Source: a virus
Length of the DNA: 64,000 bases
Reading direction: 5' to 3' (one strand)
Virus record (IMG/VR): IMGVR_UViG_3300048121_000993
Span: 22,369-86,368 of that record
A program made the position numbers and the translations under genes. The notes under the pieces were generated by a model. That model was not told where the DNA came from, did not search any database, and was given only the letters and a program-made list of their open reading frames with translations. Each line of letters opens with the position of its first letter. Position 1 is the first letter of the stretch. This document shows positions 32,384 to 35,703 of the stretch, in pieces.

Positions 32384-32833
32384 ATGAAAATTGATAATAG
32401 CAGTTATACTGTTACCCCTCCAGACCTTTATATGACCGAACATGGAATAAGTATTCTTATTTCGAGTACCAATGCAACGTTTATTACATCAGTAAAGGAA
32501 GTCTTTGAAAAATTTATAGCAACAAGTATTGTTTTTCTTGAACAAAATAAAAAAACTAATTCAGAAACACTACCATGGATGTGGAATGTTTCTAAAACAT
32601 CTGATTTTATGATAGTTGATGTAGATACTTGTGCATGGGAAGATATCATGGCAGGGTTGTTAAAATCAAAAGAAGAAGAAAATACAGTGTTATTTTACAG
32701 CGATAAATACAAGCGAAGAGAAACTGTAAAATTAATAAATGCTACAGGCACTAATTTAGTTGTTAGATCAATAAGCGATATTAACAATTATATAAAACTA
32801 CAAATGAGCCCAGAATATTTTAATGAAGTCTAG
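32384..32833 (+). CDS. Hypothetical protein (149 aa)
   Basis: The ATG directly follows the previous stop, and the end overlaps clpX by 11 bases, so it is co-transcribed with clpX. It looks like a small alpha/beta protein with hydrophobic strands; no motif is recognised. Its constant linkage to clpX might suggest an adaptor, but nothing in the sequence proves this. Confidence 0.7.
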   Translation: MKIDNSSYTVTPPDLYMTEHGISILISSTNATFITSVKEVFEKFIATSIVFLEQNKKTNSETLPWMWNVSKTSDFMIVDVDTCAWEDIMAGLLKSKEEENTVLFYSDKYKRRETVKLINATGTNLVVRSISDINNYIKLQMSPEYFNEV

Positions 32834-34046
32834 CAATCTAACCATATGCAATTTTTGTAACAAAGACACAACACAAGTAAAGAAACTACTAGCGGGTGAA
32901 AATGGTACCCACATATGTAGTGATTGTGTTGAGCTATGTTACGGCATAGTTAAAGAACAAAAGGTTGAAGCCATACATAAAAATTATGGTAAAAAATATC
33001 AAGTTCCTACTCCTAGAGAAATACATAATGATTTAGATAAACATGTAATCAGTCAAGACCATGCAAAAAAGACTTTGAGTGTAGCAATATACAATCACTA
33101 TAAAAGAATATCAACAACTACAAAAACAAAATTACAAAAAAGCAATGTACTATTATGCGGTCCTACAGGAACAGGCAAAACATTAATGGCACAAACACTT
33201 GCAGAATTCTTAGGTGTGCCAATGGTTGTAACTGATGCAACAGTTATTACTGAAAGTGGGTATGCAGGCGATGATGCAGAAGTACTAATACACAAATTAT
33301 TCCAAGCATCAAACTATAACAAAGAACGCACAGAACACGGTATTATATATGTTGACGAGATTGACAAAAAAGCAAAGCGTAATGACTATGTTAGTTTAAG
33401 CAGAGATGTATCTGGAGAAGGTGTACAACAGAGCCTTTTAAAGCTCATGGAAGGTACTATAGTACCGGTTCCTAACAAACCGCAACATAACCCGGAGAAG
33501 GTGGATATTGACACCAGTGAGATACTATTTGTAGTAGGTGGTGCCTTTGTTGGTCTACAAGATGTTGTGGTTAACAGGCTCGGTAAAGCAAAGATAGGAT
33601 TTAACGACGGTTTAGACGCCGATGTAGAACAGTGGGAAAAGCACTTACAAACACGAGATTTAGTGAAGTATGGGCTTATACCAGAATTTGTGGGTAGATT
33701 ACCGTCTGTAAACGCCTTAACACCGTTAAATAAGAACGATCTTGTACGAATACTAACTGAACCAATGGGTAGTATAATAGATCAAATAAAAGAGCTTTTT
33801 CTACTTGACAAAATACAAATAGAGTTTACAATAACAGCATTGGAACAAATTGCAGCAATTGCCATTGATGAAGAATTAGGTGCTAGAGGTTTACGTAAAA
33901 TATTAGACCAAGCACTATTAGAAACTCAATATCAATTGCCAGAATTATATGAAAAGGGAGTACGCAAAATTATTATAAATGAACAAGTTATTTCTAGAAA
34001 CGCACAACCACAATTTATTAAAGGTGAAAATGCAGAACAGAAATAA
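32823..34046 (+). CDS. clpX: ClpX unfoldase
   Basis: 407 residues, complete. N-terminal zinc domain with Cys9, Cys12, Cys32, Cys35; Walker A GPTGTGKT (113-120); pore loop SGYAGDD (146-149); Walker B IIYVDE (174-179); an IGF loop (258-260) for docking on ClpP; sensor-2 GARGLRKI (353-360). ClpX unfolds proteins with C-terminal tags such as the tmRNA peptide and feeds them to ClpP. The zinc domain, needed for SspB-type adaptors, is kept. Overlaps the hypothetical gene before and infC after. Confidence 0.97.
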   Translation: MKSSNLTICNFCNKDTTQVKKLLAGENGTHICSDCVELCYGIVKEQKVEAIHKNYGKKYQVPTPREIHNDLDKHVISQDHAKKTLSVAIYNHYKRISTTTKTKLQKSNVLLCGPTGTGKTLMAQTLAEFLGVPMVVTDATVITESGYAGDDAEVLIHKLFQASNYNKERTEHGIIYVDEIDKKAKRNDYVSLSRDVSGEGVQQSLLKLMEGTIVPVPNKPQHNPEKVDIDTSEILFVVGGAFVGLQDVVVNRLGKAKIGFNDGLDADVEQWEKHLQTRDLVKYGLIPEFVGRLPSVNALTPLNKNDLVRILTEPMGSIIDQIKELFLLDKIQIEFTITALEQIAAIAIDEELGARGLRKILDQALLETQYQLPELYEKGVRKIIINEQVISRNAQPQFIKGENAEQK

Positions 34047-34560
34047 AGGATATAAACAACGTACAAAAGGCCCATTTGTAATCGCAAATGATCGAATAAG
34101 AGCAAAAGAAGTTAGAGTAAACTTTCCAGACGGTGAAAGCCAAGTGCTGTCTTTAAAGGATGCTTTGAATGAAGCAAAGTCGTTATATTTAGATTTAGTG
34201 TTGATCGCCGAAAAGGCAGACCCACCAGTTTGTAAAATAATTGATCTAAACAAGCATTTGTATTCATTAAAGCAAAAAGAAAAATTGGCAAAGAAAAAGC
34301 AACGAGAAAGCGTTGTAGAGACCAAAGAAGTGCGTATGGGACTAAACATAGATACACATGATTTAGAGACTAAGGCTAAAGCAGCTCGTAAATTTTTGGA
34401 TAAAAATAACAAAGTAACAGTTACAGTTGTTTTGCGTGGTAGAGAACGTGGGCGGCAAGACCTTGCAAGGGAATTGCTAAATACATTTGCTTATCTATTA
34501 GAAGTAGAATACGAGCAAATATCATCACAGAACAATCGAGTATCTGGTAAAATACAATAA
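34030..34560 (+). CDS. infC: Translation initiation factor IF-3
   Basis: 176 residues from ATG 34030, which has an AAAGGTG site upstream; an in-frame ATG at 33979 would overlap clpX more. The N-domain (ANDRIRAKEVRVNFPDG, VLIAEKADPPVCKIID), Lys-rich linker and C-domain (KEVRMGLNIDTHDLETKAKAARKFL, VTVVLRGRERGR) are all present. IF-3 binds the 30S subunit and checks start codons. A phage copy, next to a phage bS21, could favour phage start sites or initiation on leaderless messages. Confidence 0.95.
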   Translation: MQNRNKGYKQRTKGPFVIANDRIRAKEVRVNFPDGESQVLSLKDALNEAKSLYLDLVLIAEKADPPVCKIIDLNKHLYSLKQKEKLAKKKQRESVVETKEVRMGLNIDTHDLETKAKAARKFLDKNNKVTVTVVLRGRERGRQDLARELLNTFAYLLEVEYEQISSQNNRVSGKIQ

Positions 34561-34568
34561 AGGTAAAC

Positions 34569-34835
34569 ATGGGAAACTATAATAGAAATAATAAACGTGA
34601 CGACAAACCTCAGTTTGGTCCTGGACTATCTGTAGAAGTTAGAAATGGCAATGTAGAACAAGCTATGAGAAAACTTAAGAAGTTAGTTATGAAAACTGGA
34701 CTTATGAATGAAGTACGCGAACGCAGATACTTCGTTAGCAACACTGAAAAAAGACTTAAAGCAGAGGCGGCAGGCCGAGCTAGAAGGCGTAGAGAAATAG
34801 CTAAAGATTCAATCGTAAAGAAAAGACTATACTAA
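34569..34835 (+). CDS. rpsU: Ribosomal protein bS21
   Basis: 88 residues. The bS21 core is clear: VEVRNGNVEQAMRKLKKLV then EVRERRYF and an Arg/Lys-rich tail. bS21 sits near the anti-Shine-Dalgarno end of 16S rRNA. Phage-encoded bS21 is known from marine viruses, including those of SAR11. The order clpX-infC-rpsU-hsp20-clpS suggests a joint effect on translation and proteolysis. Confidence 0.95.
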   Translation: MGNYNRNNKRDDKPQFGPGLSVEVRNGNVEQAMRKLKKLVMKTGLMNEVRERRYFVSNTEKRLKAEAAGRARRRREIAKDSIVKKRLY

Positions 34836-34963
34836 TACGTTATAACTGAATTTGTTCACAAATGTGGATAAATAATAATGTGTACAACAGGACTGATTCC
34901 TACCGTATACATAGAACGCCGAAAGGGTTCTAAATAATCTTGCTTAATATAAGGAGAAAAGAT
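34836..34963 (+). promoter_or_regulatory. hsp20 leader with ROSE-like RNA thermometer
   Basis: Late-type box GATAAATA at 34867-34874. A hairpin AGAAC(G)CC-GAAA-GG-GTTCT at 34913-34931 has a GNRA loop. Next, TTGCT (34940-34944) can pair with the ribosome-binding AGGAG (34952-34956) across a 7-base loop, giving the ROSE pairing order U-G, U-A, G-G, C-G, U-A. ROSE elements in alphaproteobacteria use the same conserved U(U/C)GCU to mask the site before heat-shock genes. Confidence 0.7.
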
Positions 34964-35386
34964 ATGACTAGATTAACAACACTAAATCTTCCAGATTTTT
35001 ATAAGACTACAATAGGATTTGATAGTATGTTTGATGAAATGCAAAATGCATTCGCAACAAACACAGGCGGTTACCCACCTTACAACATTGTAAAGGAAAG
35101 TGACACTAGCTATTCAATTAGCCTAGCAGTAGCAGGTTTTAATAAAGACGAGATAAAAATCGAACAAGACGGTAATACACTTTCAATTAATGCTGAAAAG
35201 AAACCAATCGAGGAAGAGATTGAATATTTACACAAAGGCATTGGAACTAGAAACTTTACAAAAGAATTTAGTTTAGCTGATTATGTAGAAGTAACATCGT
35301 CAAAGCTAGATAACGGTATCTTAGTAGTTACATTGGAACAAAATATTCCAGACGAAAAGAAACCACGAACTATTAAAATTGACTAA
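34964..35386 (+). CDS. hsp20: Small heat-shock protein Hsp20
   Basis: 140 residues. Start at 34964 after AAGGAG; an in-frame ATG at 34940 lies inside the thermometer stem. The alpha-crystallin domain is present: YNIVKESDTSYSISLAVAGFNKDEIKIEQDGNTLSI, then a GIGTRNFTKEFSLADYVEV and NGILVVTLEQ. The short C-terminal tail includes an I-x-I-like end. It binds unfolding proteins. Family members occur in marine T4-like phages. Likely heat- and late-phase-controlled. Confidence 0.95.
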   Translation: MTRLTTLNLPDFYKTTIGFDSMFDEMQNAFATNTGGYPPYNIVKESDTSYSISLAVAGFNKDEIKIEQDGNTLSINAEKKPIEEEIEYLHKGIGTRNFTKEFSLADYVEVTSSKLDNGILVVTLEQNIPDEKKPRTIKID

Positions 35387-35400
35387 TATAAGGTAAAAAA

Positions 35401-35703
35401 ATGACTCAAGCATCATCAAGTAGCGTAGCAGAAATAACTAAATTAAAACCACCATCACGGTACAATGTTGTATTGTTAAATGATGACTCTACGCCACAGG
35501 AGTTTGTAGTAAATGTTTTACTGACAATTTATAATAGGTCAACGGAACAAGCAAACTCCGTGATGCTTGAAGTCCACGAAAAGGGCCGAGGCATTGCAGG
35601 CACATACAGTTACGAAGTAGCTGAACAAAAATGTGTGGAAACTATCACTGACGCACGGAAAAACCAATTTCCATTAGATGTCACAATAGAAAAAGCAGAA
35701 TAA
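35401..35703 (+). CDS. clpS: ClpS adaptor
   Basis: 100 residues. The ClpS core is clear: YNVVLLNDDSTPQEFVVNVL, then MLEVHEKGRGIAGTYSYEVAE. The LNDD and His residues that form the N-degron pocket are kept. ClpS delivers proteins with N-terminal Leu, Phe, Tyr or Trp to ClpA, and the window encodes ClpA at 56138. The N-terminal extension needed for delivery is short (about 20 residues). Directly follows hsp20. Confidence 0.94.
   Translation: MTQASSSSVAEITKLKPPSRYNVVLLNDDSTPQEFVVNVLLTIYNRSTEQANSVMLEVHEKGRGIAGTYSYEVAEQKCVETITDARKNQFPLDVTIEKAE

Follow-up and report, generated by a model that had tools for sequence, protein, structure and literature searches.

A putative ROSE-like RNA thermometer in the 5' leader of phage hsp20 genes

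Results

Genomic context and structure of the hsp20 leader

The window, i.e. the whole stretch of 64,000 nucleotides of viral DNA that was analysed, contains a putative regulatory element in the gap between the genes for ribosomal protein S21 and a small heat shock protein (Table 1). An earlier note on this DNA had named the downstream gene hsp20, which was confirmed by its match to PF00011. The gene is probably co-transcribed with clpS. Upstream, clpX-like, IF3 and S21 genes follow each other (32823-34835), an arrangement in which proteostasis genes are found together with translation-initiation genes.

Table 1. Features of the hsp20 region in the window
Feature	Position	Strand	Evidence and remarks
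clpX-like gene	32823..34046	+	PF06689 and PF07724
Translation initiation factor IF3 gene	33979..34560	+	PF05198 and PF00707
Ribosomal protein S21 gene, 5' neighbour of hsp20	34569..34835	+	PF01165
T4-late-promoter-like box GATAAATA	34867..34874	+	Sequence; likeness to TATAAATA consensus; function inferred
Extra 5' hairpin, AUGUGUAC/GUAUACAU, inner AGGA-CUGAU-UCCU	34878..34912	+	MFE and centroid
ROSE hairpin 1, AGAAC[G]CC-GAAA-GGGUUCU, bulged G34918	34913..34931	+	MFE/centroid fold, two-sided changes
ROSE hairpin 2, UCUU[G]CUUA-AUA-UAAGGAGA, bulged G34942	34938..34957	+	Fold, ROSE_3 and R1 matches, two-sided changes
Shine-Dalgarno (SD) AGGAG, in 3' arm of hairpin 2	34952..34956	+	Sequence; 7 nt to ATG 34964
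hsp20, small heat shock protein, 140 aa	34964..35386	+	PF00011, E 5.6e-19
clpS adaptor gene, directly 3' of hsp20	35401..35703	+	PF02617, E 2.4e-27

Folding of the 155-nt leader revealed a structure more stable than those of shuffled sequences (z -4.11), and both the MFE and the centroid structure contain the three hairpins listed in Table 1. The inner AGGA/UCCU stem of the extra hairpin is replaced by AGAA/UUCU in the relatives L016, L019 and L020; phages with only two hairpins lack this structure. The box GATAAATA is late-promoter-like, and it is inferred that transcription starts a few bases downstream of it, no start having been mapped. An inverted repeat (ATTTGTTCAC/GTGGATAAAT, 34850-34873) overlaps this box and may be the 3' end of the S21 message. 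It shows paired changes in close relatives (TCCACA/TGTGGA, TCTACA/TGTAGA and TGCACA/TGTGCA).

Similarity to the Rfam family ROSE_3

In a search of 10 kb around the element with 4227 Rfam families, RF02523 (ROSE_3) was the best match (34910-34969, 25.6 bits, E 0.069). The hsp20 leader was the only match of this model within the 10 kb and was aligned end to end (model positions 1-69), the window showing the same two-hairpin consensus as the family. Membership of RF02523 by score was not met, as the gathering threshold is 43, and standard annotation therefore overlooks the element. None of the phage sequences tested reached this threshold; the best score seen was 34.1 bits for the hsp20 leader of Melnitz, and the leaders of C48C1, Atu_ph07 and Syn1 were also matched. 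A search of the virus's own genome with RF02523 and a loose first look missed the site, and two weak matches elsewhere in this genome were attributed to chance.

The ROSE-like identity suggested in the earlier note is thus supported by the top Rfam match at the site, albeit under the gathering threshold, and those characteristics of the ROSE class that can be read from sequence, predicted structure and gene context are present as well. UUGCU (34940-34944) conforms to U(U/C)GCU and is imperfectly paired to the SD AGGAG (34952-34956) in the 3'-proximal hairpin; the coordinates given earlier for both motifs, for the ATG (34964) and for the hairpin adjoining on the 5' side were right. G34942 provides the bulged or non-canonical G of the anti-SD strand, the fold and the covariation of hairpin 1 agree with two to four hairpins of which the first are stable, and the downstream gene encodes a small heat shock protein (Hsp20, PF00011). 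A fourU thermometer was ruled out, since the anti-SD strand (UCUUGCUU) does not contain four consecutive U.

Two pairing registers were compared for hairpin 2. In the first one, U34938-A34957, C34939-G34956, U34940-A34955, U34941-G34954, C34943-G34953, U34944-A34952 and U34945-A34951 pair around the bulged G34942. The second one, proposed initially, places a G opposite this G (U-G, U-A, G-G, C-G, U-A) and is possible in the window, but it would give C-A in 19 of 47 phage leaders, whereas the bulged-G register pairs throughout. Because the 47 leaders had been chosen by a detector that demands the bulged G, this contrast is partly built in. The G-G register corresponds to the NMR solution for the B. 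japonicum ROSE element, and in the crystal structure of another ROSE-like stem the G is bulged (PMC11342760).

Conservation in phage leaders

Relatives of hsp20 were gathered from IMG/VR (64 loci) and from GenBank phages (508 records, 26 leaders fetched). The resulting 53 distinct leaders include one (L081) from a SAR11 single-cell genome rather than a phage record. By a strict detector, which requires a bulged G after C or U, at least two inner and at least three outer pairs and an overlap with the SD, 47 of the 53 leaders have the SD hairpin and 46 have the two hairpins together. In 10,600 dinucleotide shuffles, in which the last 18 bases were kept, the corresponding values were 1.5% and 0.009% (1/10,600), and among 148 leaders of other phage genes three had the SD hairpin and none had both. 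Four of the six leaders that failed the detector retain the hairpin by eye, namely those of Atu_ph07, Paride, S-TIM5 (CCAC[G]CUU UUUC AAGGUGG) and ACG-2014i, the latter failing on spacing only. Detector and inspection taken together, 51 of 53 leaders have the bulged G of the anti-SD strand. Among the phage hsp20 leaders examined, only those of two Vibrio phages, L096 (PWH3a-P1) and L097 (IBT_VpB-34), lack the element. These two leaders have a TATTGCTCATYAATA stretch upstream instead.

Carriers comprise cyanophages, pelagiphages, an OM43 phage, rhizobial jumbo phages and the Pseudomonas phage Paride. Most relatives possess UUGCU or UCGCU, but the stem and its bulged G are maintained by rather different sequences: CUUGCU/AGGAG, CUCGCU/AGGAG, CCUGCC/GGAGG (the L033-L053 group), GUCGCU/AGGAC, AUCGCU/AGGAU and CCACGCUU/AAGGUGG. 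The CUGCC/GGAGG group and a few further phages (UUGCG, CACGCU) are off the motif letters, yet their pairing is kept. Compensation extends into the SD itself, AAGGAC being combined with GUCGCUU in S-WAM2 and ACG-2014i and AAGGAU with AUCGCUU in HTVC103P. The earlier note had stated in advance that leaders of relatives with broken and uncompensated pairing would refute the element; the pairing is kept in 51 of the 53. The note had also pointed out a GNRA hairpin just upstream. The loop of hairpin 1 is GAAA in the window, but relatives have UUCG, GUAA, UAAC and others, so that the GNRA loop is not conserved. The bulged G of hairpin 1, by contrast, is conserved too.

Covariance model and covariation

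Since MAFFT alone misaligned hairpin 2, a covariance model (R1) was built from 12 well-aligned leaders, the window being one of its seed sequences (34910-34966, 62.9 bits). A search of 56 sources (271 kb, both strands) yielded 45 matches at E <= 1, all of them directly 5' of hsp20. Across these matches 96.0% of the cells are paired, compared to 81.1% after shuffling, and two-sided changes occur at 11 of 13 pairs, compared to 5.5. Hairpin 1 accounts for five of six pairs with such changes (98.9% of cells paired) and hairpin 2 for six of seven. The covariation score of 0.456 exceeded those of all 500 shuffles (0.181 shuffled) and of slid versions (at most 0.101); covariation among aligned hsp20 leaders, named earlier as a check, was thus found. 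The alignment is structure-fitted and its rows are related, for which reason these numbers lean upward. The slid controls and the unfitted leaders point to the same conclusion. In alignment A3, fitted by the model, hairpin 2 of the CCUGCC group remains misaligned, an error that reduces and does not increase the pair counts of this group.

Promoter-like boxes and SAR11 counterparts

Most phage leaders contain TATAAATA, GATAAATA or TTAAATA-like boxes (ATAAATA-like) 5' of the element, at a distance of 11-16 nt from hairpin 1 in two-hairpin forms and farther up where there is an extra hairpin, as in the window. They resemble the T4 late promoter TATAAAT, which has been used in such annotations (PMC3037559). 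The leaders of HTVC115P, S-PM2 and P-HM1 have a TATAAT-type box instead.

Matches to R1 at E <= 0.01 were found in 71 of 117 genomes of the SAR11 order, and all 15 matches inspected precede the host Hsp20 gene. The SAR11 leaders are near-identical to the phage elements in sequence and structure (GUAAGUCGCCUAAUGGGGCUUAC..CUUGCUUAACAAAGGAG), but they belong to host genes and, in most of the 15 leaders inspected by eye, lie downstream of heat-shock-like boxes of the sigma32 type (CTTGAAA..CCATATAA). These ROSE-like leaders of the very abundant Pelagibacterales (e.g. L098-L112) are apparently unannotated. RF02523 did not match in 58 SAR11 genomes; as the control genomes were silent too, this is no evidence of absence. 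The ROSE stem of other Alphaproteobacteria is of the classic, longer type. A tree of Hsp20 proteins places those of pelagimyophages within SAR11 and those of jumbo rhizobial phages beside other Alphaproteobacteria, the phage label requiring at least three changes. Due to this placement, hsp20 and the thermometer were probably taken by phages from bacteria more than once; this inference rests on a single tree, in which several branches are long.

Distribution and target genes

Whole-record scans with R1 gave a match at E <= 1 in 18 of 19 records, nearly always a single one; no R1 match was obtained in the whole record of S-TIM5. The phage matches lie at hsp20 except for a weak one in Paride (268235, 19.8 bits), which, lying for the most part within the beginning of a gene on the other strand, was discarded. 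Two pattern scans of IMG/VR were evaluated for those of the matches listed that have a readable downstream ORF. Among the matches listed, 221 of 233 viral elements stand before Hsp20 (217 by HMM, four cut by contig ends by eye) and eight before DnaK; the remaining targets are three short proteins without clear Pfam match and one rubredoxin-like protein. The elements of these non-chaperone genes (short proteins, rubredoxin-like) are at L184 4153-4209, L288 966-1020, L362 1969-2025 and L348 1876-1936. Judged by sequence patterns, the ROSE-like device is common to at least hundreds of ocean and freshwater phages, at chaperone genes.

In L159, L190, L254, L259 and L386, there is one R1 match before dnaK and another before the hsp20 that comes next, with clpS following. 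These phage DnaK (Hsp70) genes, identified by PF00012 and phrog_22485, share an operon with hsp20 and clpS, in a gene order similar to that of the window, and are located at L159 775-2679, L190 5652-7568, L254 2484-4397, L259 3794-5698 and L386 7599-9497. The gene order of L190 (membrane protein, clpX, S21, ROSE-dnaK, ROSE-hsp20, clpS) is syntenic with that of the window (membrane protein, clpX, IF3, S21, ROSE-hsp20, clpS).

Predicted response to temperature

For the 47 leaders, the median predicted SD accessibility was 0.11 at 5 C, 0.21 at 45 C and 0.36 at 55 C, with a rise from 5 to 45 C in 36 of them. The SD is predicted to be more occluded than that of other phage genes (median unpaired 0.34 versus 0.52 at 20 C, p 0.014). 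Nearest-neighbour folding of the AU-rich hairpin in the window is ambiguous: at some shorter leader lengths a competing AUCUU/AAGAU hairpin is preferred, the ROSE hairpin has a low probability and there is little temperature response. This alternative is fully paired in only four of 11 close relatives. In nearly all members of the GC-rich CCUGCC/GGAGG group, the predicted SD-free fraction does not exceed about 0.15 up to 45 C, and according to these models the stability of the hairpin in this group may prevent melting at the temperatures of the sea. The folding models ignore non-canonical contacts needed by ROSE elements and neither prove nor refute switching.

Discussion

The element in the window, placed in the 5' UTR of a phage hsp20 gene, is very probably a short RNA thermometer of the ROSE-like type. 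Its sequence, the conservation of its structure, the covariation, the gene context and the existence of a host homologue were observed directly, while promoter use, melting, temperature-dependent translation and a benefit to the phage are inferred. Hairpin 2 is the SD-sequestering and, by homology, presumably the thermosensing part. Temperature control of phage hsp20 translation is likely but unproven, being inferred from homology without functional data.

The closest tested counterpart is the two-hairpin ROSE element of Pseudomonas ibpA, for which a thermometer function has been demonstrated (Krajewski et al. 2013, PMC3669281). In those Pseudomonas elements of this layout that were tested, melting of hairpin 2 takes place between 25 and 42 C with hairpin 1 still closed, and deletion of the G combined with U38C locks the hairpin (PMC3669281). 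A stable hairpin 1, a short hairpin 2, the U(U/C)GCU/SD pairing around a G, flanking G-C pairs and a small heat shock gene downstream are common to both systems. What separates the phage elements is their location in phage genomes, an AU-richer sequence, a third hairpin in some cases, a conserved bulged G also in the 5' hairpin, their occurrence before dnaK and, in many phages, a late-promoter-like box instead of a sigma32 promoter.

By analogy, in a cool cell the U(U/C)GCU strand would pair imperfectly with the SD around the bulged G and ribosomes would be held back, until warming or local unfolding opens the weak hairpin 2 and Hsp20 is made. The stable 5' hairpin or hairpins may insulate the sensor and protect the 5' end of the message. 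The late-promoter-like box appears, from its sequence, to stand in many phages where the bacterial sigma32-like promoter was. Due to this replacement, phage hsp20 would be transcribed on the phage's own schedule and translated according to temperature.

It is conceivable, albeit unlikely, that the leader merely looks like a ROSE element and acts as a translational attenuator, which ensures low constant expression or is opened by a non-thermal factor such as RegA, a ribosomal protein or neighbouring initiation factors. The modest predicted temperature response and the apparent stability of the GC-rich CCUGCC group fit this explanation, as do the S21 and IF3 genes upstream in the window and a regA gene directly 5' of hsp20 in several cyanophages. 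However, no regA lies upstream in other carriers. Moreover, what is conserved is precisely that bulged-G U(U/C)GCU/SD core which tested ROSE elements need for their heat response (PMC3669281, PMC11342760), the homologues are found at bacterial heat-shock genes and the targets are chaperones. Even less probable is a passive relic, which arrived with a bacterial hsp20 and has no function in phages. The position of the pelagimyophage and jumbo rhizobial phage proteins in the Hsp20 tree and the presence of the same element in host leaders are compatible with such an origin, but deeply diverged phages retain the element through compensatory substitutions, including changes of the SD, although the remaining leader and the promoter region have changed. 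A chance SD-complementary hairpin in AU-rich DNA, to which the single-sequence Rfam E-value of only 0.069 might point, is refuted by the comparisons with shuffles and with other genes and by the covariation controls.

RNA thermometers already known from phages are those of lambda cIII, SPbeta blyA (fourU) and a gut-phage sigma70 gene (PMC11182007, PMC10586365). They likewise control translation of a phage gene by temperature, but they are single cases, none of which has been described as ROSE or is located at a heat-shock gene. The earlier note knew of no ROSE element in a phage, and none was found in the literature searched, which was open-access only. To our knowledge, no one had described a ROSE device before phage chaperone genes. 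While the mechanism as such is not new, its wide use among viruses apparently is.

The putative thermometers on hsp20 and, in sister phages, dnaK, each separate and situated beside clpX and clpS, raise the question of whether many large phages run a heat-shock regulon of their own, with phage-scheduled transcription and with translation set by temperature or folding stress, independent of host sigma32. At present this idea may just as well prove wrong as right.

The Rfam thresholds hide the ROSE class in viruses and perhaps in SAR11. T4-like cyanophages have hsp20 among their core genes, and it is also present in pelagimyophages and freshwater relatives. Its role has only been guessed, the suggestions being scaffolding of the capsid or survival of the host at high temperature (PMC3037559, PMC7674155). 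A conserved thermometer before hsp20 implies that the dose of the protein is meant to follow temperature, which is testable in cultured phages. The case also illustrates how phages may take over an RNA device from bacteria and exchange its promoter, and, acting on translation, the thermometer would couple sea temperature to the infection of abundant ocean bacteria.
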